Shown: piece by piece, positions 13,404 through 33,713 of the stretch
Layout: each line of letters begins with the position of its first letter
Position numbering within the stretch: the first letter of the stretch is position 1
From: Polychytrium aggregatum
Lineage: Eukaryota > Chytridiomycota > Chytridiomycetes > Polychytriales
DNA: 64,000 nucleotides
Assembly (NCBI RefSeq): GCF_025602895.1
Contig: NW_026516220.1
Location: 558,001-622,000 of the forward strand
Direction of reading: 5' to 3'
Position numbers and translations under genes: made by a program
The notes under the pieces: model-generated
The model's database searches: none
What the model saw: only the letters and a program-made list of their open reading frames with translations
Told to the model about the DNA's origin: nothing

Positions 13404-16400
13404 ATGATGGACGAAGGTAAAGACGAGCTCGGACTGCCCCCAGCAACCGAGGCCTCGCTCGCCCAAGCCGTCGAAGTCTCAGCCCTCAAGACGCATATTG
13501 GCCGTCTGCTCTGGGTTGTTCTCGATGCCAACCCCCAGGACGTTGAATCTTCTCTGCTCAATCACGCCGATACCTGGGAGATCTGCCACAAATTCATCAC
13601 CGATCCCCAGCAGCAAGTGCTCTTCATTGTCAAGGAGAAGGGAGAGGCCCGCACCAACGCCAATGCCGGCCTCGGCTCCTATTCGGACTACTCCTCGAAC
13701 AGCTTCAGTACATTTTCGTACAACCTCGATTATGGCTCGCTGACCAGCCCCACGGGCTACAACTGGAGAAGCGGAGGTATGGGAGATGGTGCCATCGCAG
13801 CGCCACCTGCTGTCTGTCGGTGGAGCGGTGTTGCAGCTGACCGGGTTGGGTGTCTATCGGTCCTGTCTTGACGATATCTGCACCGTCATTGTCCGGTCTT
13901 GCCTACCGCCCAGTGGAAGACTCCAACAACCACAACTACAACTATGCGCTCCAACTCGAGCTGAGCTACTCTGATAGCCAGGTCGCCTCCATGGCCCTGA
14001 TCAAGCGTTTCCCGATTGTCGAGGAGGGTCGCCCCCTGCAGAACCAGCTGCAGCTCATCAACTTGCCGGGTCCTGGCGATGGCGGAAACACATACGAGAC
14101 GCTCCATTCGTACATCCACAACGCCGTGTCCCCTTTCTTCGATGCCTATGTGGCTTCCAAGGGTGGGCTCGTTCCCAGCACCGGTGGCCGCGACGACAAA
14201 GAAGCCAAGACAGGTAATGCCATCGGTCCTGGGTGATCTACATAACTCCGTCTGTCACCAACAAAAATGGCCTCGGTGTATTGTGAAGGATCGGCACCGG
14301 GCGAATATCTCGGGCCCGTCGGCGTTGAATGTCCATGTCTCCCGTGTCACTCTGCTCATGTACCAATTGCCTATCAAAACCCTTTCAGGTGTCCCCATGG
14401 CCAAGAAGAAGCTGGCTGAGCTTGAGCTGTCGCTGCTGCATCTCCAGCAGAACGTCGAGATCCCTGACATCACCCTGATGATCGACCCGGTCGTCAAGTC
14501 GGCCGTCACGACCTGCCGCGAGCAGAAGAAGAAGGTCACGGTCGACGCCGTCGGCAACATCGACGACTCGTCCTTCCTCAACAAGCTTCAGGGAGACGTC
14601 AACGGCTGGGTCCGTGAGATCCAGAAGGTGACCAAGCTTACCCGCGACCCTGCCTCCGGCACAGCCAGCCAGGAAATCAACTTTTGGCTCAGCATGGAGC
14701 GTGCGCTTGCCCAGATCGAGGAGCAGCTCAAGAGCGACCAGATCACCCTGACCCTCGACATTCTCAAGCACGCCAAGCGCTTCCATGCCACCGTTAGTTT
14801 CCTGGCCGACACCGGCATCAAGGAAGCCATGGACAATGTCGCCAAGTACAACCAGCTGATGCGCGACTTTCCCCTCAACGAGCTCCTGTCCGCCACCGAC
14901 GTCGACAAGATCCGCGAGTCCATCCTCCAGATCTTTGGCCACCTCAACAAGAAACTCAGGCTCTCACCCTATCCGATCCGCCGCGCCCTGCCCTTGGTCG
15001 AAGCCATCTCGCGCGATCTCAACGAGCAGCTCCTCAAGGTTCTGGGCAATCGTCGCCTGATGTTCATGGACTACAACGAGTTCGAGAAGGCCATTGCCGG
15101 ATGCGACAAGGTGTTTTCGGTCTGGGACGACCAGGTCAAGGAGTTTGTCAACGTTGCCCGTGAGGTCACGCGAAAGCGATCCGAAAAGTTCATTCCGCTC
15201 AGGGTCAACAATGCCCACGTAAAGCTCGAGGAGCGCGTCAACTTCCTCAAGACTTTCCGAAAGCAGCACGAGCAGCTTCACTCGACCATCCTCAAGGTCA
15301 TGAAGCCCGAGAAGTCGTCGATCGAAGTCTCCACTACGATTGTCAGCATCGAGCGCGGCGTCCACATCTCGGACGCCTCTGCCATCGACGATGTCAATGC
15401 CGCGTTTGAGGGTGTCAAGAAGATCGATGTGCTCGACATCACTCTCGAAGGCACCGAGGTCTGGGTGGCTGCCGAGAATGCCTACAACGACCGCGTCTCT
15501 CGGGTCGAAAACCAGATCATTGCTCGCCTGCGCGATCGCCTGGGCACGGCCAAGAACGCCAACGAGATGTTCCGTGTCTTCTCCAAGTTCAACGCCCTCT
15601 TTGTGCGCCCCAAGATCCGCGGTGCCATCCAGGAGTACCAGACCCAGCTCATTGACAGTGTCAAGGATGACATCAAGCGCCTCCACGACAAGTTCAAGGC
15701 CGGCTTCCGCAACTCGGAGGTCTACCGCATGTCGCAGCTGCGTGACATTCCCGCCGTTGCCGGCACCATCATATGGGCTCGTCAAATCGAGCACCAGCTC
15801 GGGCTGTACATGAAGCGAGTCGAAGACGTGCTTGGCAAGGGCTGGGAGAACTATGCCGAAGGCACCAAGCTCTACGAGGAGTGCACCGCCTTCCGCAGAA
15901 AGCTCGACACCAAGCCGGTCTTTGACGCATGGCTGACCGAGATCCAGAAGCGCGACCTTAGTGTATCCGGACGCATCTTTGACATTGTCCGTGCCCGCGC
16001 CGCCGGCAACGCCCTGACCCTGAACGTCAGCTTTGACTCCCAGATCATCACCCTGTTCAAGGATGTTCGGAATCTGCTTTGGTTGAATTTTAGCATCCCA
16101 CATGCGATCTCGAATGTCGGCAAGGATGCCAAGCGCGTCTACCAATACGCTGTCTCCCTGAGCGAGACCGTGCGCACCTACGGCCAGACCGTCAACAAGG
16201 TCACGCGCAACGCGGTCATTGCTCCTCTGATCGCCGTGTATCAGAAGGATGTGCAGACAGCCATCTCCAAGGGCATCATGTACCGATGGGAGATGTTTAG
16301 CGGCAGCGTGAGTATCCGTCGCCCGTGTTGTTTTTTTTTTTTTTTTTTTGCTTCGGGCGTGCACGTCTCGATGCTCGAGCGCATATATGCGGACATACAG

Positions 16401-19400
16401 CCATTATCCGCTCGCTCTGACGGCGAGTCCGGGCCCTGTACTCATCCCAGCCGCACACTCATTCATGCTAAGCTACATTTGCTCCTCGATTTTGCTAGTA
16501 CGACACTCGTCCCCAGTTCACTGTCCACTACCGCGGAGCCGACAAGGCCGAGAATCGCCAGGTCATGTATGTGCGCGAGTTTGCTGCAATCGTTTCCGTC
16601 TTCCAGGAAAAAGTCAACACGGCCTTGTTGATTTACAACGAAATCAACCTGGCTGTCGAGGAGCTCAAGAGCTGCGTCTACCTCAAGTCCAAGCTGATGG
16701 AGATCCTGGATCGCATCCAGCGCGACATTGACCGTCTCAATCTCGAGGCATATTCCAACCTGGAGGAGTGGACCGAGCAGATCGACCAGCGCATTGAGGA
16801 GGTCCTGATCACGCGTCTTCAATCCGCCATCAAGGTAGAGACAACAGCATAATGCCGATGCCACTCTCGCAGGGCGATGCCCGTATCCAGCAGATGTTGT
16901 GCAAGGCGTCGTCGCCCCTGCGGTCGTATCTCTGCCAGCTCTGAGCTAACAGCTGTCGCCGTATTCGCACAGGCATGGACGGCCGAGTTCCTGCAAGAAG
17001 ACGGATCAATCGACGCCCGTCGGCTGCACAATCGCCTCACCTCCGAGGGCAGCTTGATCCAGCAGCAGCTCGAGGAGTTTATGGAGCTGAGTACCCCTCG
17101 CAAGGACGAAAGCCGACCCCAGATGAAGTGTCTGGTTCACGAGCTCCGCCTCAAGGACCAAGTCATGTACCTCTATCCGCCCATCGAAAGTGCCCGCGCC
17201 CACTGGTACACCGAGCTTCATGACTGGCTGTTGGTTGTGTGTTCGCTCAGCCGTGTCCAGGGCTCTCGCTATGAGATGGGTCTCGCCGTTGATGTCGAGG
17301 AGTCCGAGAACACCTACAGCAACTTGGTGAGTGCCGTTTCTGCTCCTCTATTACCTCTGACAGCAAGTTGGATTGTCCGCACTTGCGGTATTGGTACTGG
17401 CATTGTGTTTGAGGTTTAACCGTGCATTTCGTGGTCTCTATCATTCCAATTCCTGCACCTTCGTGACCCCGTATCTCCCTGATCTCGAACTTCCATGGCC
17501 ACCGTCCATCGTGTCTCAGCTCACCAAGCTGCCGCAGAACACGCTCGAAAGTGCCTACGGTATCTTGGAGATGAAACTCAAGCTCGTCTCAGATTACGTC
17601 GGCATCTGGCTGCAATACCAGTCCCTCTGGGATCTCGAGCCCCAGCTCGTGCACTCCAAGCTCGGCGATGACCTCAACAAGTGGCAGCAGCTTGTCCTGG
17701 AGATCAAAAAGGCCCGCGCCACGTTCGACAACTCCGAGACCAAGCGGTCGTTTGGTCCGATTGTGATCGACTACGAGCAGGTGCAGTCCAAGGTCAATGC
17801 CAAGTACGACCAATGGCAGCGCGAGGTGCTCAACCAGTTTGGCTCCAAGCTCGGCAACTCGATGCGCGAGTTCTACACGACTGTCTCGAAGGCTCGCTAC
17901 GACCTGGAGCAGCAGTCGGTCGACAGCAGCTCCACTGCCGCTGCCGTGTCGTTTATTACGTTTGTGCAGGACCTCAAGCGCAAGCTGCCAAAGTGGAGCG
18001 TCCAGGTCGAAACCTTCCGCAACGGCCAAAAGGTGCTCGAGCGCCAGCGCTTCCAGTTCCCCAGCGACTGGCTCTACGTTGACAACGTTGATGGCGAATG
18101 GAGCGCCCTGAACGAGATCCTGACTCGCAAGAACAACGCCATCCAAGAGCAGATTGCTGGCCTGCAGAGCAAAATCGTCGCCGAAGACCGTATTGTCGAA
18201 CAGAAGATCAAGGATATCCTCGCTGAGTGGGAGAAGAGCAAGCCTGTCCAGGGACAGATCGAGCCCGACATTGCCATGAACACCCTAAGCATCTTCGAAG
18301 GACGTGTTACTCGCCTCAAGGAAGAATATGACCAGGTCTGCCGCGCCAAGGAGGCCCTTGATCTCGAGCAGACAGTCAACAACCGCCTGGATCCTGTCCT
18401 GGAGGAACTCCGAGACCTCAAGGGTGTTTGGAGCTCGCTCTCGGCCATCTGGCAGAAGATCTCGGAGCTCAAGGATACTCTCTGGTCGTCTGTCATGCCA
18501 CGCAAGCTGCGCCAGCAACTCGACCAGCTGCTGGCATCCACCAAGGAGATGCCCAGCCGCATGCGTCAGTACTCGGCTTTCGAGCACGTGCAGGAGACCA
18601 TCAAGAGTCACATCAAGACCAACGCCCTCCTGACCGACCTCAAGTCCGAGGCTCTCCGCGAGCGCCACTGGAAGCAACTGTTCAAGTCACTCAAGTTCGA
18701 CGGCAAGCTCATTCTCTCGGAGCTCACTGTCGGCCACCTCTGGGATGCAGACATGAAGCGCAACGAGACCGTCATTCGCGAGGTCATCACCACTGCCCAG
18801 GGCGAAATGGCTCTCGAAGAGTTCCTCAAGTTTGTCAAGGAAACCTGGACCTCGTACTCGCTTGAGCTGATCAACTACCAGAACAAGTGCAGACTGATCC
18901 GTGGATGGGACGACCTGTTTGCCAAGTGCTCCGAGAACCTCAACTCGCTCACGGCGATGAAGCACTCACCCTACTACAAGGTCTTTGAGGAGGAGGCCGC
19001 CACATGGGAGGACCGCCTCAACCGAATCCACGTCCTCTTCGATGTCTGGATTGATGTCCAGCGCCAGTGGGTCTATCTCGAGGGCATCTTCACCGGCAAT
19101 GCCGACATCAAGCACCTGCTCCCTGTCGAGAGCTCGCGCTTCCAGAACATCAACGGCGAGTTCATGGCCGTCATGAAGAAGGTCTACAAGTCGCCCTTCA
19201 TTCTCGATGTTTTGAACATCCAGAACATCCAAAAGTCGCTCGAGCGCCTGGCCGATCTGCTCTCCAAGATCCAGAAAGCGTTGGGCGAGTATCTCGAACG
19301 CGAGCGCTCGTCGTTCCCGCGCTTCTACTTTGTTGGTGACGAGGACCTGCTCGAGATCATTGGCAACAGCAAGGATGTGGTGCGCATCCAAAAGCACTTC

Positions 19401-22400
19401 AAGAAGATGTTTGCGGGCATCTCCAGCATCATCCTCGACGACGAGGCCACGACCATCCTCGGCATGGCCTCCAAGGAAGGCGAGACCGTCCAGTTCAAGT
19501 CTCCAGTGTCGATCAAGAGCAACCCCCGCATTAACGACTGGCTGACGCTCCTTGAGAAGGAAATGCGCGAGTCGCTCGCCCTCTGGACCTCGGACGCCCT
19601 CCAGGCCATGAATCAGTTCTACTACTCAGAGAACCTCGACGGCAGCGAACTCCTCTCCTGGATGGACACCCATCCCGCCCAGCTCGTTGTCCTGACCATG
19701 CAGATTGTCTGGACCCAGTCCGTCGAGAAGGCTCTTGCCGCAGCGTCCGAGACCCGCGACACCACCGGTCTGCAAACCTCGCTCAAGCTCACTGAGCGCA
19801 GCCTCAACGTCCTCGCCGACCTGGTCCTCACGGATCTACACCCTCTCAGACGCAAGAAATGCGAGCACCTGATCACCGAGCTCGTGCACCAGCGCGATCT
19901 GATCCGCAAGTTGATCCAGAACCAGGTGTCGTCGGCGTCCGACTTTGACTGGCTCTACCAGATGCGCTTCTACTGGAACTCGAGCGAGCCCGACCCGCTC
20001 AAGCGTCTCACCATCCGCATGGCCAACGCTTCCTTCCTGTATGGCTACGAGTACCTTGGCGTGCCCGACCGCCTGGTGCAAACGCCCCTGACGGATCGCT
20101 GCTACCTGACCCTGACCCAGGCCCTTGACAGCCGTCTTGGCGGCAGCCCCTTCGGACCCGCCGGCACTGGCAAGACCGAGAGTGTCAAGGCCCTGGGTGT
20201 GCAGCTCGGACGCTTCGTTCTGGTCTTTTGCTGCGATGAAAACTTTGACTTCCAGGCCATGGGACGAATCTTCCTGGGTCTCTGCCAAGTCGGCGCCTGG
20301 GGCTGCTTTGACGAGTTCAACCGCCTGGAGGAGAGAATTCTCTCGGCTGTCTCGCAGCAAATCCAGACCATCCAGATTGGCCTCAAGGAGGAGGGCGAGA
20401 TCGAACTCCTCAGCAAGAATCTCAAGGTCAACCCCAACACCGGCATCTTCATCACCATGAACCCTGGCTATGCCGGCCGATCGAACCTCCCCGACAACCT
20501 CAAGAAGCTCTTCCGAAGCATTGCCATGACCAAGCCCGACCGCGAGCTCATTGCCCAGGTCATGCTGTACTCGCAGGGCTTCCGCACCGCCGAGCTCTTG
20601 GCCTCCAAAGTCGTACCGCTCTTCAATCTGTGCGACGAGCAGCTATCGCCTCAGAGCCACTACGACTTTGGTCTCCGTTCGCTCAAGAGTGTGCTCATCA
20701 GCGCCGGTAACTTGAAGCGTGATCGTTTGAACAGCCTGCGATCGCTGCAGATTGAAGCCGAGACGAGCGATGATGCGGTCCTGAAGGCCACTGCGGCCTC
20801 GTCGCTGGAGAGCATCTCCGATAGCGGTCGCGAACAAGAACTCCTGATCCAGAGTATTCGCGAAACTGTTGTGCCCAAGCTCGTTGCGGAAGACATCCCG
20901 CTCCTGCAGAGGTTTGTGGTGCACCTGCCTCTTGTTTGGCTCTTGTTTCGCTGCGAACTGACACGACACTAACACACCATTGCCACCATTTCTACCATTG
21001 CCATCATTGCCATCATCGCCATCATCGCCATCCCCATGTCCTTCTAGCTTGATGGCCGATGTCTTCCCCGGCATCGAGTACAAGCCCGTCGACCTTGGCA
21101 AGCTCCAGACCGAGATCCGCAGGATCTGCAAGGAGCGTCGTCTTGTGGATGGCGAGTTCTGGATGGAGAAAGTCATTCAGCTGTATCAGATTCAGAGCAT
21201 CCACCACGGCCTGATGATGGTCGGCCCTTCGGGCTCTGGAAAGACCCTTGCTTGGCAGGTGCTGCTGGCTGCTCTCGAGAAGGTCGAGGGCGTCGAGGGT
21301 GTCTCGTACGTCATCGATCCCAAGGCCATGTCCAAGGAGGCTCTGTATGGCTCGATGGACGTCACAACGCGCGAGTGGACCGACGGTCTCTTCACGCACA
21401 CCCTTCGCAAGATCGTCGACAATGTCCGTGGCGAACACAGCAAGCGCCACTGGATCATCTTTGATGGCGATGTCGATCCCGAATGGGTTGAAAACTTGAA
21501 CTCGGTCCTCGACGACAACAAGCTTTTGACGCTGCCCAACGGTGAGCGCCTGTCGCTGCCTCCCAACGTCCGCATCATGTTCGAAGTCGAGACGCTCAAG
21601 TACGCCACCCTGGCAACGGTCAGTCGCTGTGGCATGGTCTGGTTCAGCGAAGACGTCATCACCTTCGACATGATCGCCACCAACTACCTCGAGACCCTTC
21701 GCCAGATCCCTCTGGATGACACCGAGGAGGAGTCTGTCAATCGGCGAACAGCCAACAACGAGGACGCTGCTGTGTCGCAGTCCCTGATCACCCAACGGCT
21801 GATTGCAGAAATCATCTCGCCCTACTTCCGGCCCGATGGCCTTGTCCAACGCGCCCTCGAGGCTGCAGAGTCCCTGGAGCACATCATGGACTTTACGCAC
21901 ATGCGCGTGCTCAACACTCTCTTCTCGCTCATCAACAAGACCGTGCGCAACGTGCTGGAGTACAATGCCGGCCATCCTGACTTCCCCCTGGGTCACGATC
22001 AGATGGAGGCCTACGTTCCAAAGCGCCTGGTGCTTTCGATCATTTGGAGTTTCTCTGGCGACTCCAAGCTCGAGACCCGCTCCAGACTCGGCGAGTTCAT
22101 CCGCACCTCGACCACCATCGATCTGCCTCCCACGGGCTCTGGCGCCTCCGTCATTGACTACGACGTCAGCCTCACAACAGGTGAGTGGATTCCTTGGCAG
22201 ACCAAGGTGCCCACCATCGAGATCGAGACCCACAATGTCTCTGCGGCCGACATTGTCATCCCCACGATCGACACCGTCCGTCACGAGGAAGTTCTGTACT
22301 CGTGGCTGTCGGAGCACAAGCCCGTTATCCTCTGCGGTCCGCCCGGCTCCGGCAAGACCATGACTCTGTTCTCTGCTTTGCGCAAGCTCAGCGAGATGGA

Positions 22401-25400
22401 GGTTGTCGGCCTCAACTTCTCCAGCGCCACCACACCTGAGCTGGTGCTCAAGACATTTGAGCAGTACTGCGAGTATCGCAAGACTCCCAACGGCGTGGTC
22501 CTGTCTCCCCTCATGTTGGGCCGATGGCTCGTCGTCTTTTGCGACGAGATCAACCTCCCTGCCACCGACAAATATGGCACCCAGCGCGTCATCTCGTTCC
22601 TGCGTCAGCTCGTTGAGCGCGGCGGATACTGGCGCTCGTCCGACAAGTCGTGGGTTCAGCTCGAGCGCATCCAGTTTGTCGGCGCCTGCAACCCCCCGAC
22701 CGACCCTGGTCGTGTGCCGATGACTCACCGGTTCCTGCGCCACGCGCCGCTGGTGATGGTTGACTACCCTGGCGAGATCTCCTTGCTGCAGATCTACAAC
22801 ACCTTCAGCAGAGCCATGCTCAAGGTCACGCCGTCGCTGCGAGGCTATGCCGAGCCCCTCAGTCAGGCCATGGTCGAGTTCTATCTGATGTCGCAGAAGC
22901 GATTCACACCCGACATCCAAGCCCACTACATCTACTCGCCGCGTGAGCTTACCCGCTGGGTGCGCGGCATCTTTGAGGCCATCAAGCCCAGCGAGAGCCT
23001 CACCATCGAGGGCTTGGTCCGCATCTGGGCACACGAAGGCTTGCGGTTGTTCCAGGACCGCCTCGTCTCTGAAGACGAGCGCCAATGGACCGACGAAAAC
23101 ATCGATGTCGTTGCCCTGAAGCACTTCCCCAACATCAACCGCGAGCAGAGCTTGACCCGCCCGATTTTGTTCTCGGACTGGCTCACGAAGGACTACCTGC
23201 CGGTGGAGCGCGAGGAGCTGCGCGAGTTTGTCAAGGCCCGCCTCAAGACTTTCTACGAGGAGGAGCTTGACGTGCCACTTGTGCTGTTCAACGACGTCCT
23301 CGAGCACGTCTTGCGCATCGATCGTGTGTTCCGCCAGAAGCAGGGCCATCTGCTGCTCATCGGTGTCAGTGGCAGCGGCAAGACGACCCTGTCCCGCTTT
23401 GTGGCCTGGATCAAGGGCCTCAGCGTCTTCCAGATCAAGGTGCACAACAAGTACACTGCCGAAGACTTTGACGAAGACCTCCGCACGGTCCTGCGCCGCG
23501 CAGGCTGTAAGGGTGAAAAGATCTGCTTCATCATGGACGAGTCGAACGTCCTGGACTCGGGCTTCCTCGAGCGCATGAACACTCTCCTTGCCAATGCGGA
23601 AGTTCCCGGCCTCTTCGAGGGCGACGAGTACGCCTCGCTGATGACCCAGTGCAAGGAAGGCGCACAGAAGAACGGGCTGATGATCGACTCGGCCGAGGAG
23701 CTGTACAAATGGTTCACCAACCAAGTCATGGAGAACCTGCACGTCGTCTTCACCATGAACCCTCCCGAAGGCGGCCTCGCTTCCCGCGCCGCCACATCGC
23801 CTGCGCTCTTCAACCGCTGCGTTCTCGATTGGTTTGGCGACTGGTCCGACCAGGCCTTCTACCAAGTTGGCAAGGAGTTCACCGACACCCTCGACCTCGA
23901 TGTCGGTGTGTACACTCCTCCGCTCAACTTCCCGATTGCCTACCGCGACCTGCCCATGCCTCCGTCCTACCGCAACGCCGTCGTCAACGCCTTTGTGTTT
24001 GTGCACCAGTCGCTCTACGAGATCAATCTGAAGCTGAGCAAACGACAGGGCCGCTACAACTACGTCACCCCGCGCCACTACCTCGACTTTATCAGCCACT
24101 ACGTCCGCCTCTTCCATGAGAAGCGCGAGGATCTCGAGGAACAGCAGCGCCATCTGAACGTTGGTCTGGATAAGCTCCGCGATACCGTTATCAAGGTCGA
24201 GGAGCTTCGCAAGAGCTTGGCCGTCAAAAAGGCTGAGCTCGAGAACAAGAACAAGCTCGCCAACGAGAAGCTGCAGAAGATGGTTGCCGACCAACAGGAA
24301 GCTGAGCAGAAGAAGGCCGCTGGACTCAAGATCCAGGAGGACATTGAGCGCCAGAACATTGCGATCGAGGAGCGCCGCACGACCGTCCAGGGCGATCTGG
24401 AGAAGGCCGAGCCGGCTGTCATCGAGGCCCAAAAGAGTGTCAGCAACATCAAGAAGAACCACCTGACCGAAGTGCGCTCGATGGCCAATCCGCCCGAGTC
24501 CGTGCGAATTGCGGTCGAATCGGTCTGTGTGCTCCTGGGCCACAAGGTCGATTCGTGGAAGACGGTAAGCATCGCGAGCATCGCATGTTGTCCTGGCTGT
24601 CGGCGCCCGCTTCTTCCTTGGACTGACTCCAACTTTGCTGCTCCTGGCCGCAGGTCCAAGGTATCCTCCGCCGCGACGACTTTATCTCCAGCATCGTCAA
24701 CTTTGACACCAACAAGATGAACACCAAAATCCGTGAGGACGTCAACTCAACCTACCTGTCCAACCCGAACTACAACTTTGAGTCGGTCAACCGCGCTTCC
24801 AAGGCCTGTGGTCCTCTTGTCCAGTGGGTGATTGCCCAGGTCACGTACTCCAAGATCCTGGAGCGCGTCGCCCCTCTCCGCAACGAGCTTGCCGACCTCG
24901 TCAAGGACGCCGAGAAGGCCAAGATCAGCGCCAAGACCATCCAGGACATGATCCAGGAGCTCGAGGAGAAGATCGCCCGTTACAAGGACGAGTACGCTGT
25001 TCTCATCAGCGAGACCCAGGCCCTCAAGACCGAGATGGAGAAGGTCAAGTCCCGCGTCGATCGCAGTTTGGCGCTGCTGGCCAACCTCTCCTCCGAGAAG
25101 GAGCGCTGGGAGTCGTCGAGTCAGTCATTCGAGGTGCAGATGGGCACCATTGTTGGCGATGTTCTGCTCTCTGCCGCCTTCCTCGCCTACGGCGGCTACT
25201 TTGATCAGCAGTACCGTGACGCGCTTCTGCAGTACTGGAAGATCCATCTCGTCCAAGCCGGTATCCGCTTCAAGCAGGACCTTTCTCTGCCCGAGTATCT
25301 CTGCACCGCCGACGAGCGTCTCGCTTGGCAGGCCAATGCTTTGCCTGCGGACGACCTGTGCACCGAAAATGCCATCATGATGAAGCGCTTCAACCGCTAC

Positions 25401-28400
25401 CCGCTCATCATCGACCCCTCTGGACAAGCCACGGCCTTCCTGCTCAACGAGTACAAGGACAAGAAGATCACCGTCACCAGTTTCCTGGACGACTCCTTCC
25501 TCAAGGTTCTCGAGAGCGCCCTCCGCTTCGGCAACCCGCTCCTGGTCCAAGACGTGGAGAACCTCGATCCCATCCTGAACGCCGTCCTCAACAAGGAGCT
25601 GCGTCGCACTGGCGGCCGTGTCCTTATCCGTCTCGGTGGCCAGGACATTGACTTTTCGCCTGCGTTTACCCTGTTCCTGTCGACGCGCGATCCCTCTGTC
25701 AACTTCCCGCCGGACATTTGCTCCCGAGTCACCTTTGTCAACTTCACAGTGACTCGTAGCAGTCTCCAGAGCCAGTGCTTGCACCAGGTTCTCAAGGTCG
25801 AGCGCCCAGACACCGATCGCAAGCGCACCGATCTCATCAAGCTCCAGGGCGAGTTCCAGCTCAAGTTGCGCCATCTCGAAAAGTCGCTGCTGCAGGCCCT
25901 CAACAACTCCAAGGGCAACATCCTCGACGACGACAACATCATTTCCACCCTCGAGACCCTCAAGCAGGAGGCCGCCGAGGTCACCCGCAAGGTCGTCGAG
26001 ACCGATGTGGTCATGAAGGAAGTCGAGTCGGTTACGTCCATGTACACTCCGCTGGCGCAGGCGTGCAGTTCCATCTTCTTCATCATGGAACAGCTGAGCC
26101 AGCTGCACCACTTCTATCAGTTCTCGCTTGATTTCTTCATGGAAATCTTCCAGCACATCATGCACAACAACCCCAACCTCAAGGGCCTCACCGACTACAA
26201 CCAGCGCCTGTCGATCCTGCTCAGGGATCTCTTCAAGGTCTCATACACGCGCGCCTCCCAGGCTTTGCTGCACGACGATCACATCACCTTTGCTATCCTG
26301 CTTGCACACGTTATGCTGCGAGGTAGCAACGACCAGATCGACGACCTCGACTATGACTTTTTCCTCACGGGTGGCGAGCGCGTTGGAGCCGCCAAGCCTG
26401 CCAACGAAATTGTCGATGTTGTTGGCGAGGAAGCGGCCAATCGCCTGGCGGACCTGGCCAGAATCCCCGCGTTCAAGTCGGTTGCGGAGCACTTGGCAGC
26501 CAACGAGGCCGAGTGGCGCGCCTTTAGCGGTGACCTCACCCCCGAGACACGCATTCCACACTGCTGGGCGGATGCATCTTCCGAGCGATGTAAGTGCTGA
26601 CCCGTATGCGGGGGGGGGGATGCAAATGGCAGCATCCCGCGGTTCTGTGGGAGTGGGATACGCATCGTTCATCTTAACGGGATATCCTGGAATTGCCATC
26701 TGACTGTGTCATTTCGCTCTCCATCGCCTTCTGCACGTTTACTAATCCTTGCCGAATGATCCCCTAATCGTCACCGTAGCCCCCGTGGTTGATGCTTTCA
26801 GGAAGCTGATTCTGATCAAGTGTGTCCGCCCCGATCGACTCACCTCGGCCGCGACGACCTTTGTGGACGCTGTCTTTGGCAGCACTTTCATGTCCGATCC
26901 GCTCAACCTCCGCAGCGTCGTCCTGGAGGAGCTCTCGAGCTCGACCCCGGTCGCTTTCTGCTCTGTGCCGGGCTTTGACGCCAGCTACAAGGTCGAGAAC
27001 TTTGCCCACGATGTGTCGACCCGCATCACCTCGGTGGCCATGGGCTCGACGGAAGGTTTTGCCCTTGCCGATAACGCCATCTCGACCGCGGTCAAGTCTG
27101 GCAGCTGGGTCCTGCTCAAGAACGTTCACCTGGCCCCCTCGTGGCTCGGCCATCTGGAGAAGAAGCTCCACAGCTTGAAGCCCCACAAGGACTTCAGACT
27201 GTTCCTCACGATGGAGACCAACCCCAAGGTTCCGGTGAACCTTCTGCGCCTGTCGCGCGTGCTCATGTTCGAGCCTGCCCCTGGACTGAAGGCCAACCTC
27301 ATCCAAAACCTGAACAGCATTCCGGCCGCCAAGCTGACCAAGGGCCCTGTCGAGCGCACCCGCCTCTACTTTGTTTTGGCCTGGCTCCATGCCGTCGTGC
27401 AAGAGCGCCTGCGCTACGCCCCGCTGGGCTGGACCAAGGTTTACGAGTTCAATGACTCTGAACACGACATGGCGCTGCTGATCATCGACAACTGGCTTGA
27501 GGCCACGAGCCAAGGCAGAAGCAACATCTCGCCGGATCGTATTCCCTGGGACGCCATCAAGACCCTGATCCGAGAAACGGTTTATGGAGGCAAGATCGAC
27601 AACGAGTTTGACCAAACCCTCCTCGACTCGTTTGTAAACAAGCTCTTCCGACCCGAGAGCTACGATGTTGGATTCCCGTTGGTTGAAAGGTCTGAGGATG
27701 GCGAGGCCCTCATCATCCCCGAAGGCACCAAGCTCGAGCAGTTCGTGTCGTGGGCGCAGCAGCTCCCAGAGCAGCAGCCACCCTCGTGGCTCGGACTGCC
27801 CAACAATGCCGAGAAGGTTCTCATGGCTTCGAAGGGTAAGTTGGGTTGCTGTGGCCTCGCGGCGATGCCACAGCTTGCAGCCTATTCCCGCAGCTGCCAA
27901 TCGAGGACATGGCTGCAATGGTTTTGCGGGCAGAGTCGCTCGAGCGCACACCGTCGCCGGAGGCGCCCACGCTCATGCTTGTATCCACCCCAGGTCTGTC
28001 CATGATCTCTAACGTTCGCAAGATGAGAAGTCTCAACGAAGAGGAGGATGTCGTTAACTCCTCGGGAGCCACGACCAAGGCCAGCTCCGCCGCCCAGCCC
28101 GCATGGATGCGCGTCATCATCTCGTCGGTCGACGAGTGGCTCGCCATGCTTCCGGAGGTTCGTTGTCTGATGTGCACGACATCGCCGTCTGTGCCTTGGC
28201 TGCTTCCACGTCGTGTCAGTTGGACTCATTGCGCAATGCGCCGCCTTTCTTGCAGAACCTCACCGCGATGATCAAAACGACCGAGAGCATCAAGGACCCG
28301 CTCTTCCGCTTCTTCGAGCGCGAGAACAAGATTGGCAAAAAGCTTCTATCGTCCGTTCGAAGCGATCTCACCGACCTGCGCAAGGTCTGCGAGGGCCAGC

Positions 28401-29350
28401 TGAAGCAGACAAACCATCTCCGAGCACTTATCGACTCGGTTACCAAGGGTAAGTCCGCACAGCCCTGCCGATTTTCATGCGTCTGGACTCGGGAGACCCA
28501 CCCCAGTGATCGATGCCACTTGCAGCGTCCGCCACCCGGCACCCCACACCTGCCCAGCTCTGTGCTAACGGTGAGACCGATACCCTCCCCTCATTTAGGT
28601 GTCATTCCCCAGCACTGGATCAAGTTCAAGGTCAGCAAGGATCTCTCGCTGACCCAGTGGATGAGCGACTTCAATATGCGCCTTGCCCAACTGTCCCACG
28701 TTTCGTCCAAGACTTCATTCAGCGACCTCGATGTCTGGATCGGCGGACTCTTCATTCCCGAAGCCTTCATCACCGCCTCTCGTCAGTCTGTGGCCCAGCG
28801 CAACCAATGGTCGCTCGAGGAACTCGAACTCCAGTTCGAGTTCAACAGTAGCAGCAGCGACGGCTTGGGTTTCAACATCTCAGGTCAGCATTGCAGCTTG
28901 CGTGCGCCAATCGGTCGGCGTTACGCATTTCTGGCGTGTATCTGGATATGCGAGCCAAGCGCGCCCATATTGGCTTGGCCTTGCTGACAGAGCACTCCAT
29001 GCCCACCGCTATTCCTTCCCACTTTCCACACAACTGCTGACCTTGCCTCGCTTCATTCTTATTTCTTCCATGGCTTCGCGCCTCCAGGTCTTCGTCTCCA
29101 GGGTGCCATCTGGAAGGACAATGCCCTTGTTCTCTCTTCCGACATTGCCACCAAGTTGTCGGGCACCCGCATCCGATGGGCCAAGACGTCCGAGGCGGCC
29201 TCGGCCAAGCGCCGCGCCCTCGGACTTCCTGTCTACCTCAACTCTGATCGTACCGAAGTTCTCTTTGTCGCGAACCTGCCTGCGGAAGCCCTCTCTGAGA
29301 ACTCCAAGGTGATCCAGCGAAGCGTTGCGATCATCGCCGCCAACTTCTAG
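13404..29350 (+). CDS. DYNC1H1: Cytoplasmic dynein 1 heavy chain
   Basis: This is the minus-end-directed microtubule motor subunit. Thirteen exons: 13404-13776, 13914-14213, 14389-16307, 16499-16834, 16973-17326, 17520-20911, 21048-24564, 24654-26589, 26780-27835, 27994-28157, 28256-28448, 28599-28883 and 29088-29350. They total 14,088 nt, or 4,695 aa, the usual family size. The tail covers roughly residues 1-1700. AAA1 has P-loop [10 protein letters not shown] (about residue 1973) and Walker B CFDEFN; AAA2 has GPSGSGKT (about 2284); AAA3 GPPGSGKT (about 2655) with [11 protein letters not shown]4 [13 protein letters not shown] (about 2996) with FIMDESN. The long stalk coiled coil and microtubule-binding tip follow across the intron 24565-24653. 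The AAA1 block LGRFVLVF with DFQAMGRIF and the block [20 protein letters not shown] near the C terminus are typical of dynein 1, not of axonemal or IFT dynein. All four P-loops look intact. Introns cluster at the 5' end and in the last 3 kb. Confidence 0.96.
16331..16349 (+). repeat. Poly(T) run in a dynein intron
   Basis: Nineteen T residues lie 22 nt after the donor of the intron 16308-16498. The run is far from the acceptor at 16498, so it is not the usual polypyrimidine tract. Confidence 0.9.
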
Positions 29351-29666: not shown

Positions 29667-32600
29667 CTATTGACTCAGGTTGCTGGTCGACTGTGCGCGG
29701 TGGTGATTGGCAGCCGACAGACAGGCCGTCTCCTCAGGCAGCCTTAGTGGCATGTCCTCCTTGCCAACCAGCCAATATGTTGTCATGATACCCTTGCCCT
29801 ATGCATCGGCATGGCCGTCGGCGCAACCCGTGAGCATTAGCTGCATGTTTTGGCTCATCGATTGATGCGACAGACCAACGTGGCTGGACCTGCTCGCCGA
29901 GCCGTCTCCCTCATACAACAGCGAGTCAAACCCTTGCATCCGACAGAGGCCGCAAAAATGCACATACCTTGACCTTGGTTTCACCTCGACACACCAGCTC
30001 GTATCCACCGTTCCTCTTGAGTGCCTGGTATGTCGCTTCGCTGATTTGAATGCGCATCGGATCGCCCGACGACATCATCCGGGAGGCAACATTCATGGTG
30101 TCTCCAAACAAACAGTATCTGTCGCGAATTGTAGCGATGAGAGGTCCGAATGGCGATAAGCGGTCCGAATGGCGATAAGCGGTCCGAATAACCATGAGAG
30201 GCCCGAGTGACGATGAGAGGCCCGAATGACGATGGGTCTCCATGCGCCCATGCCGCGTGGCAGATTTACGAGCCAAGAATGCGCTGTTGGTTCACGGCTG
30301 CACAAGCCCCTGATCGCCGTCAGCTTACCGAGGCATCTTGAGCCCGACCACTCCTGCCACCACTGGCCCCGTGTTGATGCCGATCTGGATCTTGAGCCGG
30401 AAATCAGGTCGGCCTGGCAGCGTGAAGTTGAGCGCTGCGGCGAGGAGATTCAGCGCCAGATTGGCGATTTCACACGGATGCATTTGCCCGTTGCGCATCG
30501 GCAGTCCCGAGGCAACGACGTAGCTGTCGTTGATGGTCTCGACTTTGTAGGCGTCATGCTGGCTGATAACCTGTGTCCAAAAGTTGTCAGTTGGGGCTGA
30601 GCCACAGTGCGGCGGCTGCATCTACTTCTGACAACGTTCGTATCTACTCTTGGCAGCGGTTCGCTCGATCGGCAGCGACGAAGCAGCAGCACTTACTCCA
30701 TCAAACAACGTGTACAATCCGTTGAGCAGATCCACCATCTCCAGGGCCGTGCTCTGTGCGCAAACATCGGCGTACCCGACGATGTTCGAGAAGAGAATGG
30801 TGCACGAATCGAATGGCTCGGGTATAATCTGATTGCCCGCGACCAGCTGCTTCTGGATGTCGGCCGGGAGCATCTGCGACAACAGGGCGTCGGACTTGGC
30901 TTTGGAAATGTCAACCTGCTTGATCAGTTTCTCGATTTCAGCCTGCTTCTGCATGTCCGTGGCTTTTCTAAACTCTTCGAGACGGACTTCTTCAGTCAAG
31001 TCTCGGACAATGCCCGTAAATAGATGGGCTCCGTCCTGGCAACAACAAGCAGGAGCGCATGAGCATGGGAAGAGCGTGGGCGTGGGAGAAGCATGAGTGT
31101 GCGTCTCTCGATTTCAGCCTCGATACAGAGCCCGAAATGTCGTCGCACTCGTGACCTCAATCAATCGAGCACACGGGCACAGAGAAGATACAGGACCATG
31201 TTGCATCGGTGCAATTACCTCCAACACCTCCGAGACTGAAATATGGACTGGGAACATTGTACCGTCTTTCTTGAGGCCGAATGCCCTTCGTCCATAGCCG
31301 ATGATTTTCTTGATGCCCGTGGTCAGGTAGTTTGTCAAGAAGGTGTCGTGGACAGCAGCGATCTCCGGTGACTGCAGGATCTTGACGTTAAGACCAATGA
31401 CTTCATCGGCAGTATAGCCAAACATGCTCTCTGCCGCACTGTGGCGATGACATCCAGCATTGACCCTGTTAGAGATGCTTCCAGCGTCGCCCGTGCAACA
31501 ATGCTCGCTTGGAAGCGCCGATGGCGAACGCCATCTCAATACAAGCACCGAGAGCCCGTATCACATGGCCAAACCCTATTTGGACCGCTCGATGGGTGTG
31601 GCCCACGCTTATTGCTGCATGATACCTTACCTGTTGAACCGCACGATGATTCCAGACGGATCAATGTTGATGATGCCGTTGATGACGGTGTCGAGCACAG
31701 AGTTGAGAACCCGTCTCTCAACAAGCATCTTGGCCTCGGCATCATGAACAGAGGCTTCCATCTGGATCTCCTTCTCCTGAAGGGAGTACAGGGCCTGCAG
31801 CTCGTTTTCGTGAGTCTCCAACAACTCCTTCATCTCGAGCTGCTGCGACGCCTCAAGCTGGAGAGTACGATCTTGGATGCTGCTCTCGAGTTTCTCGAGC
31901 TCCGCCTTGTGGATCTCCAAAGTAGAGTCACGGGCCTGTTCGTGTTTCTTGATGAGCCGAATTATGGTGGAGGCGCTCTTGTTGTCTGGGTCCGCCTCGA
32001 TATCGTTGCGTTCATCGTCCGAGTCTTCTTCCTTTGTAGTGTTCTCGAGGGGACCAGCAACGCCAGCAACACCAGCGACACCAGCGACACCAGCGACACC
32101 GGCAGTACCGGCAGCACCGGTAGCCACAACCGGGGCCAAAACAGACTTGATCATTGTAGCAGAGGCCACGGACGAGACATCGCTCTTTCCTCCGTCGCTC
32201 TTGTTATCGGAATGTGCATCAATATCGCTCATGGAGGCATGCTGCGAGGCAGGTTGGGACACCGTCGTTCGAACGAGCTTCGGGGCAGGGAAACCCTTGA
32301 TCGATTGCACTCTAAGCAAACGCGCAGAGGTTTGCAGCCAACGATTGTAGATGGTAGTAACAGGGACAGGAGAGAGGCAAAGTAAGCTACCAGACCGGTT
32401 CCAAGAGATAGGAGATTCGGACCGGCTATCACTCGCGAGTCGGGCGGCTCTGTGTGTGTGGGGGACAAACTCGAGTCGATATGAGACCACTTTGCACGCA
32501 CTGCCTACCGGGCTTCCTGCTGGCCACGAAGGGCCTTGAGTTGGATCCTGTGTGATTTTGTCATTTTCTTGCATTCGGCGATGTGCTGGGCCTCGAGCAG

Positions 32601-33713
32601 GGCTAGTTTTGCCAACTCGCGCTGAGCGACCAGACGCTCCTTCTCGAAATGCAACTCGATCGTCTGTCCGGCGATGAGCTCAGACATGGCAAGTACTTGC
32701 TGAGCCTTGGTGGCCTGCAAATCTTCGTAAGACTGGAACTCGAGGTCGAAGCGTTCCTTGGCCTGGGACATTACGATGCAGAGCTTAGTATGTCAGGAAG
32801 ATCAGCCTCTGGGCCCATGAAGACACCACAAGCAACTCACATGTTTCAGCTCAAGTTGCTGGATTTCTTGTAGCTGGTCTGAAACTCGCTTGTCTGCAGC
32901 GCTTTGATGGTTCATGCGCACGAGGAACTTTTTCTGCATCGTCCGCCGGACCTCGACCTGCACAGAGTGCGATTGTGTTAGAATGCAGCCAACATCGATC
33001 AGAGAAGAGGTGGGCAGGAGAAGAAAGGGCTCTCTATCGGAGGTTCAGCATTCGAAAACTAATATCTTGCCTTCCGGCCTCTCGACGACGGCTTGGGCGA
33101 CACTTACTCGCTCATGTACATTCTGCATCTCATCAAGCACCCGCTCGTACTGGATCTTGCGCTCCTGTGCCATAGCGAGCTGGCGGCGCTGCTTGTCGTG
33201 CTTGTTCACCATGTGTGCTGTCATGGCATCGAACATGTTGCGCTTCTCGGTCAGGGTCCACTTGACCCGGGCGGCTTCCTTGGAGGCTGCGTCCTGGTCC
33301 ATGATAGTCTTGTCTCTGCGCTTCATGTCGCGGACGGTCTGGCGCTGGATCTTCTTGGCTTTCTTCCGCGCATCGCGGGCGGCAATCAGCCGCTGGAAGG
33401 TATCTTTGAGCTGCTGGAACTCACCCTGCTGCAGCTTCTTGAGATGCACCAGCTCGGCGTCGTGGCGCTGGTTGAGATAGGCCTCGTCCTCCTTGCGGAG
33501 GACTTCCTTCTCAGAGTCCTTCATGCCCTCTTCGATGCGAATGCAGTCGTTGCGCAGACTCTCGAAAAAGTGCAGCGTCTGATTGGTCATAAAGCCTTTG
33601 AAGTGCGACTGCATCTCTTCGTTGGTGGAGTGTGTGCTGCCGCCAATATTGCCTTGGGCGTCTCGGCTGTCGCCGGCCCCTGCATGGGTCATGTCGTTGT
33701 AGGACAGCTCCAT
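29667..33713 (-). CDS. Coiled-coil / PAS / guanylate cyclase with altered metal site
   Basis: Minus-strand exons 33713-33108, 32957-32841, 32762-32509, 32311-31631, 31438-31219, 31035-30697, 30570-30329, 30118-29968 and 29798-29667 give 913 aa in frame. Residues 1-320 are almost pure charged coiled coil. A Ser/Asp linker with a GVA repeat and a second coil follow. A PAS domain lies at about 535-640 ([44 protein letters not shown]). The class III cyclase domain covers about 670-890. Purine-selecting residues are Glu750 (KVETIND) and Cys822 (YCLFGD), as in guanylate cyclases. Transition-state residues Asn829 and Arg833 are kept, as is the second metal Asp754. The first metal Asp is replaced by Asn710 (ILFSNIVGY). 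No TM segment is seen, so a soluble cGMP-forming enzyme or dimer subunit is likely. The ATG at 33713 is the first in frame; an upstream exon is not excluded. Confidence 0.88.
30133..30235 (-). repeat. Degenerate ~20-nt tandem units in a cyclase intron
   Basis: The intron 30119-30328 contains about five related units built on GATGAGAGGCCCGAATG and GATAAGCGGTCCGAATGGC. They explain the short ORFs here; they do not look like exon sequence. Confidence 0.75.

Follow-up and report, generated by a model that had tools for sequence, protein, structure and literature searches.

Complementary active-site losses suggest that PAS guanylate cyclases of a chytrid probably pair as obligate heterodimers

The window analyzed here, a 64,000-nucleotide stretch of Polychytrium aggregatum DNA (C90:558001-622000), carries on its minus strand, at 33713-29670, a nine-exon gene that we call B1. 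Its 913-residue protein looks like a guanylate cyclase in which Asn stands where the first metal-binding Asp of the active site would be. The question is whether such a protein can work alone, has left catalysis for a regulatory role, or is one half of an enzyme made by two genes.

We modeled B1 by spliced alignment, placing its splice junctions from GT-AG sites and paralogues, not from transcripts. The exons lie at 33713-33108, 32957-32841, 32762-32509, 32311-31631, 31438-31219, 31035-30697, 30570-30329, 30118-29968 and 29798-29670, and a TAG stop (29669-29667) comes directly after the last of them. A long helical region opens the protein; a variable linker and a second helix lead to a PAS domain (residues 530-641), which is followed by a class III cyclase catalytic domain (residues 699-881). 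The N-terminal helical region (residues ~44-330; 32299..33584, introns inside) is probably a coiled coil, called by eye in B1, and it is kept across six paralogues with an identity of 52-89% over the 15 paralogue pairs. The PAS domain (30991..31701, two introns inside) was matched by Pfam PF00989/PF13426 and had FixL as its best PDB match. The catalytic domain (29766..30819, three introns inside) matched PF00211 (Guanylate_cyc) with an E value of 1.1e-58 and a score of 198.2 bits, against a curated cut-off of 21.9. PAS and Guanylate_cyc were the only Pfam domains in the 913-residue model. Two repeats lie within the gene: a 9-bp tandem repeat (window 32053-32124) codes for Gly-Val-Ala repeats in the linker, with similar stretches on C371 and C13, and a 19-bp minisatellite (window 30135-30234) sits in an intron that splits the cyclase domain. 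On the plus strand, from 14001 to 28002, pieces with dynein heavy chain domains run convergent with B1, and that gene appears by eye to end near 29350.

Protein searches of the genome identified six loci that encode the coil/PAS/cyclase architecture. Besides B1, these are B2 (C2:952854-948983, minus strand), A1 (C2:960653-956887, minus), A2 (C2:315909-311711, minus), A3 (C2:705019-708572, plus) and X (C2:961554 to about 965.2k, plus); B2, A1 and X are clustered within ~16 kb (C2:949.0-965.2k). Searches with one B exon and with one A exon each retrieved the same six loci, and the next matches were other cyclases (E 0.0065 and 5.6e-4). Three exons that together encode most of the PAS domain and the N-terminal two thirds of the cyclase domain measure 220, 339 and 242 nt in all six genes. 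The only cyclase domains seen with the GTP-selecting Glu/Cys pair were those of this family. The N termini are incomplete in the models of B2, A1, A2, A3 and X, the last short exons are doubtful in A1 and X, and in A1, A2 and A3 the modeling of the coil-PAS linker is poor. The A3 model spans an in-frame stop inside a likely GTGAGT intron, which was entered as an unknown residue (X) in alignments. Many cyclase and phosphodiesterase loci of this assembly occur as near-identical pairs or trios across contigs (e.g., C113/C405 and C17/C135/C386); the PAS-cyclase loci on C2 and C90 each occur once.

We then compared the six proteins at eight active-site positions, using the class III residues named in the available portions of PMC3591389 and PMC2576301. 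At position 1, codon AAC (30784..30786; GTT on the plus strand) gives Asn710, in the context ILFSNIVGY, in place of the first metal-binding Asp; NPR1 and GC-C have FSDIVGF there. This residue is also Asn in B2, whose codon is AAT, and is Asp in A1, A2 and A3 and Ser in X. The base-selecting Glu at position 2 (Glu750, 30538..30540) is kept in B1, B2 and all three A proteins and is Asp in X. The second metal-binding Asp at position 3 (Asp754, 30526..30528) is likewise kept in both B and all A proteins, with Gly in X; the Gly that precedes it is replaced by Asn753 (30529..30531) in B1 and by the same residue in B2. Position 4, the metal-side phosphate-positioning Arg of the MRIG/LRIG strand, is Arg in A1, A2 and A3 and Gln in B1 (Gln801, 30385..30387), B2 and X; we matched this column by alignment to R574 of soluble guanylate cyclase (sGC) alpha, a residue named in the accessible text of PMC3591389. 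The base-selecting Cys at position 5 (Cys822, 30112..30114) is kept in all B and A proteins and is Arg in X. The ribose-orienting Asn at position 6 (Asn829, 30091..30093) is kept in B1 and B2 and is Val, Thr and Ala in A1, A2 and A3, respectively, and Gln in X. The transition-state Arg at position 7 (Arg833, 30079..30081) is kept everywhere except in A1, which has Lys. At position 8, the phosphate-binding Lys (Lys870 of KVKGKG, 29968..29970) is kept in B1 and B2, is Arg in X, and aligns with Thr, Glu and Asp in A1, A2 and A3, the A1 residue depending on the splice site used. This last row is the weakest, since splice sites in the A genes come from inference, a GC donor is an option in A1 and every A protein has a nearby Lys; A1, A2 and A3 have probably lost the phosphate Lys. 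The B1 coordinates were read from the spliced model and the paralogue alignment. A sequence-only reading had called Asn710 and the retention of Glu750, Asp754, Cys822, Asn829 and Arg833, and the DNA and the spliced 913-residue model agree with it down to every residue number; Asn753 and Gln801 are further changes outside its list.

Cys at position 5 of the A proteins is easily missed. An extra intron, common to A1, A2 and A3, leaves a 13-nt microexon that codes for YCLF in the active-site loop, so that the Cys is kept (L010 3302-3290 in A1, L012 3202-3190 in A2 and L013 5150-5162 in A3). A reading of the A genes as lacking the Cys was ruled out by this microexon, which lies between two introns in each of them. 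The sequence-only reading had proposed a search of the rest of the genome for a coiled-coil/PAS cyclase with FSD but without the Glu or the Cys. Three genes with the first Asp intact are there, but all of them keep both Glu and Cys.

Could Asn710 be an artifact? B1 is known from one assembled sequence, and its Asn codon might in principle stem from faulty sequencing or assembly, or from a recent mutation in a gene that is decaying. However, B2 shares both FSNIVGY and KVETINDSY with B1 and reaches Asn through a different codon, although the two cyclase domains have diverged to a dS of ~1.8 (values above 1, this one included, being near saturation) with a dN/dS of 0.076. The frame and splice sites of B1 are also intact. 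Because B2 has its Asn by another codon at this dS and dN/dS, the substitution has been preserved across a long divergence. Judged from this comparison, Asn710 is not a base-call error: B2 rules out a sequencing or assembly error, and we give the error or fresh-mutation reading as a whole practically no weight. The A genes have cyclase-domain dN/dS values of 0.144 (A1-A2) and 0.116 (A1-A3); both kinds of gene are under purifying selection. A DNA search of the same genome found paralogues and no second copy of the B1 locus.

None of the six paralogues has the complete set of eight residues, and all residues missing from B are present in A, and vice versa. Genome searches of the assembly found no complete guanylate cyclase. 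To ask how readily such a pattern arises, we took the 112 columns that are identical in NPR1 and GC-C, of which 23 are changed in all three A proteins, 29 in both B proteins and 16 in both kinds. When eight of these columns were drawn at random, an equally complementary pattern, defined as two or more losses among the positions that each half can dispense with and no loss among those essential to it, under either assignment, appeared in a fraction of 0.00064 of 200,000 draws. With columns taken as independent, a simpler binomial calculation for the assignment actually seen gave 0.005. The three A proteins form one clade and the two B proteins one group, so each half counts as one lineage and the independent losses are few. 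The statistic therefore lends support to a split active site and is not proof of one.

From the observed residues, their sharing among paralogues and the purifying selection, we infer pairing, activity and regulation as follows. B1 and B2 probably supply the beta-like half of a guanylate cyclase that works only as a heterodimer, with A1, A2 and A3 as the other half. A and B would dimerize through the long coiled coil and the PAS domain, which would also carry the signal. In the complete A:B site, A would supply both metal-binding Asp residues and the phosphate Arg, and B would supply the guanine-reading Glu and Cys, the ribose Asn, the transition-state Arg and the phosphate Lys. The mirror site would have no full metal side, with Asn710 and Gln801 coming from B, and neither ribose Asn nor Lys, from A. 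Because the metal side is incomplete in B and the ribose Asn and the Lys are missing in A, this second site is predicted to be unable to turn over; it may serve as a regulatory pocket. Some features argue against this model. B1, on C90, is unlinked to the C2 cluster of B2, A1 and X, and B keeps the second Asp. With Glu and Cys in all A proteins and the position-7 Arg in A2 and A3, weak A homodimers may form.

Two other readings of B1 have to be weighed against the heterodimer. In the first, B1 is a working homodimer in which Asn710 binds metal weakly, together with Asp754. Other enzymes use Asn for metal coordination, and Asp754 and all base-side residues are kept in B1. Active homodimers are moreover reported for some sGC beta subunits in the part of PMC5225109 available. 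However, a self-sufficient homodimer has two metal-binding Asp residues in one subunit, and B1 has Asn710 at the first; a second metal-side residue, the Arg replaced by Gln801, is lost as well, and this is so in both B genes. The human sGC beta catalytic domain, which also lacks the first Asp and that Arg, had no significant homodimer activity (PMC3591389, as excerpted). We regard the homodimer as quite improbable. In the second reading, B1 is a regulatory pseudo-cyclase that binds GTP or a partner and stays outside catalysis. B1 has lost the first metal Asp as well as the phosphate Arg, and a clearly degenerate paralogue exists in X, which groups with B (93/89) and is changed at 7 of the 8 positions, keeping only the position-7 Arg. 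In the heterodimeric rhodopsin-guanylyl cyclase NeoR/RGC1, the mirror site is non-catalytic and yet affects activity (PMC12264004, available text). Against this, B1 and B2 both retain the full set of five base- and ribose-side residues under purifying selection, and X shows how such residues drift when they are free to do so. A pseudo-cyclase would also leave the A proteins without a donor of the ribose Asn, which among the six is kept in B1 and B2 only. We consider the pseudo-cyclase unlikely, and the heterodimer remains the reading we favor.

The heterodimer has a close counterpart in sGC. We worked from human sGC alpha and beta fragments that matched PDB chains; at positions 1 to 7, alpha has D, E, D, R, C, T and K, and beta has G, E, D, T, C, N and R. 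Like B1 and B2, sGC beta has lost positions 1 and 4 and kept the Asn and the Arg. sGC alpha resembles A: both Asp residues and the phosphate Arg are kept, the ribose Asn is lost (Thr in both A2 and alpha), and the transition-state Arg is Lys in A1 and alpha. Glu and Cys are kept in both halves of sGC, as in A and B. For position 8, we take K593 of sGC beta, by counting along the sequence, to be the first Lys of the xKGK motif. K593 is named as a phosphate Lys in PMC3591389 (available text), where the human sGC catalytic domains were without significant activity as homodimers and active as an alpha and beta mixture. The C1 and C2 domains of mammalian adenylate cyclase also fit: at positions 1, 4, 6 and 7, they and sGC alpha and beta diverge in the same sense as A and B. 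C1 keeps both Asp residues and the Arg, like A, and C2 keeps the Asn and Arg, like B. Unlike A and B, however, mammalian adenylate cyclase is one polypeptide and a membrane protein, has Lys and Asp at the base positions, and lacks both metal Asp residues in C2.

Despite this likeness, the six genes are not soluble guanylate cyclases by sequence. The best PDB matches of the B1 cyclase domain were the receptor cyclases NPR1 (E 1.3e-70) and GC-C (5.4e-60). Behind them came two-domain adenylate cyclases, with E values from 1.2e-50 to 9e-43, and the sGC chains ranked lower still, at 7e-39 or weaker. A tree of 12 rows placed all six paralogues in one clade (98/98) apart from sGC, and the A clade had support of 100/99; B (86/76) and B plus X (93/89) were less supported. 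Leaving out the eight catalytic columns, the clade of six was still recovered (88/98), a clade of B with sGC beta was rejected (p-AU 0.016), and a clade of A with sGC alpha was borderline (p-AU 0.052, above 0.05). The order in which the six, sGC, NPR1 and GC-C diverged is not resolved by the trees. Domain content differs as well: the six genes have a FixL-like PAS domain and a long N-terminal coil. The heme-NO-binding domain (HNOB, PF07700) was found neither in B1 by Pfam nor elsewhere, with 0 matches in the genome in a search whose positive control matched in 1 of 14 genomes (Caulobacter). HNOBA (PF07701) likewise had 0 matches in the genome, in a search without any positive control match; a piece of A1 scored 21.7 bits (cut-off 23.4), in an alignment confined to the final 42 of 216 positions. 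Membership in sGC is ruled out by the heme-NO search, the PDB matches and the tree. Since the six form their own clade, have catalytic domains nearest to receptor cyclases and come from a genome whose search turned up no heme-NO domain, this lineage most likely evolved the alpha/beta-like split itself, independently of sGC. The earlier proposal of a beta-type half of a PAS-cyclase heterodimer thus gains three sister genes of the same architecture that carry the first Asp, but B1 falls outside the sGC beta family. Nor is B1 a receptor cyclase in its architecture: its catalytic domain is nearest to NPR1 and GC-C, but Pfam found no kinase-homology or extracellular domain in it. Heme sensing of the FixL type was also ruled out. 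The proximal His of the FixL DPHIIG motif is the heme His, and all six paralogues have Lys or Arg at that site.

We also scanned contig, viral and phage collections and found no orthologue-like match in these three. The contig collection gave one weak locus from 34 stretches, covering residues 1-29 only, at the PAS end; the viral scan gave none from 28, and the phage collection gave one distant match, with 34.7% identity over 75 residues.

The nearest fungal case is NeoR/RGC of Rhizoclosmatium globosum, the heterodimeric rhodopsin-guanylyl cyclases of a chytrid (PMC12264004, in the text available). B1 differs from these in having no microbial rhodopsin domain by Pfam, and PF01036 had 0 matches in the genome, in a search without any positive control match. 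NeoR, the metal-giving half, lacks NxxxR (Thr and Lys), like A1 (Val and Lys), and the pair has one catalytic site (PMC12264004, same excerpt). RGC1 and RGC2 retain the residues known to matter for cyclization, according to the part of PMC8815786 available; on these accounts only one half of NeoR/RGC has decayed, whereas both halves have in the six PAS cyclases. In the RGC1-D379A mutant, in which the metal Asp of the base-giving subunit is removed, light-triggered NeoR/RGC1 activity rose ninefold (PMC12264004, available text). We took D379 as equivalent to Asn710 because it lies 40 residues before Glu419, as Asn710 lies before Glu750. Because removing this Asp raised activity, the loss of the first Asp in a base-giving half seems compatible with an active enzyme. 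The same excerpt of PMC12264004 reports that RGC2-cat was inactive alone despite its kept residues and that restoring NxxxR to NeoR-cat gave no activity. By this analogy, residue content is a poor predictor of activity.

The heterodimer principle itself is already known. In C. elegans, the receptor-type cyclases DAF-11 and ODR-1 pair obligately, both monomers contributing essential catalytic residues to a single site (PMC5225109, available text). These are nematode transmembrane receptors with kinase-homology domains, unlike B1. What does appear new is the case itself, its architecture and its lineage: by title and the start of the abstract, none of the matches listed in open-licence PubMed Central described a fungal PAS guanylate cyclase with a split site. 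The NO receptor, DAF-11/ODR-1 and adenylate cyclase have one complete and one broken site each, and A:B would add a further case. This genome retains two B genes, three A genes and their dead relative X, similar enough for all of them to be aligned. With six such close paralogues, the order of residue loss and the control of a good site by a broken one become testable by single-residue swaps. If the model is true, it describes how a fungus could make cGMP without rhodopsin, with a PAS sensor. A broader version, to which we give about an even chance, is that PAS guanylate cyclases were rebuilt here, independently of animals, into heterodimers that are both obligate and combinatorial. Two subunits of the beta-like kind and three of the alpha-like kind would make six enzymes, no single gene would make cGMP alone, and the catalytically dead X, whose gene lies head-to-head with an alpha-like one, would possibly be a competing or regulatory partner.

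The X model is open throughout and starts ~900 bases from the start of the A1 model, on the opposite strand, the 5' end of A1 being incomplete. Arranged head-to-head, X and A1 perhaps have a common promoter. A2 and A3 have almost identical cyclase domains (dS 0.12), and the introns inside them are likewise almost identical (C2:312k and C2:707k), whereas their coiled coils are much older (dS 0.67); gene conversion confined to the catalytic part is likely. The residues at positions 6 and 8 nevertheless still differ between the two.

The cyclase domains read elsewhere in the genome look to be of another kind. PF00211 gave 48 exon matches, which we sorted into 18 places, 12 of them outside the six-gene family. 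Six of these 12, one per near-copy group, were read by eye and have adenylate-type residues: on C371, C17, C113, C168 and C364 there is Lys where the base-selecting Glu would be, and on C390, read at the Cys position only, there is Asp where the base-selecting Cys would be. The C371 adenylate cyclase has leucine-rich-repeat-like and PP2C-like sequence ahead of its cyclase domain, which we take to be the fungal adenylate cyclase arrangement. Phosphodiesterase domains (40 exon matches) and cyclic-nucleotide-binding domains (64 exon matches) occur in the genome, so cyclic-nucleotide signaling is present, with no specificity for cGMP implied. Around the C2 cluster (C2:945-956k; L038 8054-9826 and L009 2-757), a photolyase/cryptochrome gene (PF00875 and PF03441) on the opposite strand separates B2 from A1, and past B2 comes a gene whose product has a cyclic-nucleotide-binding domain (PF00027).
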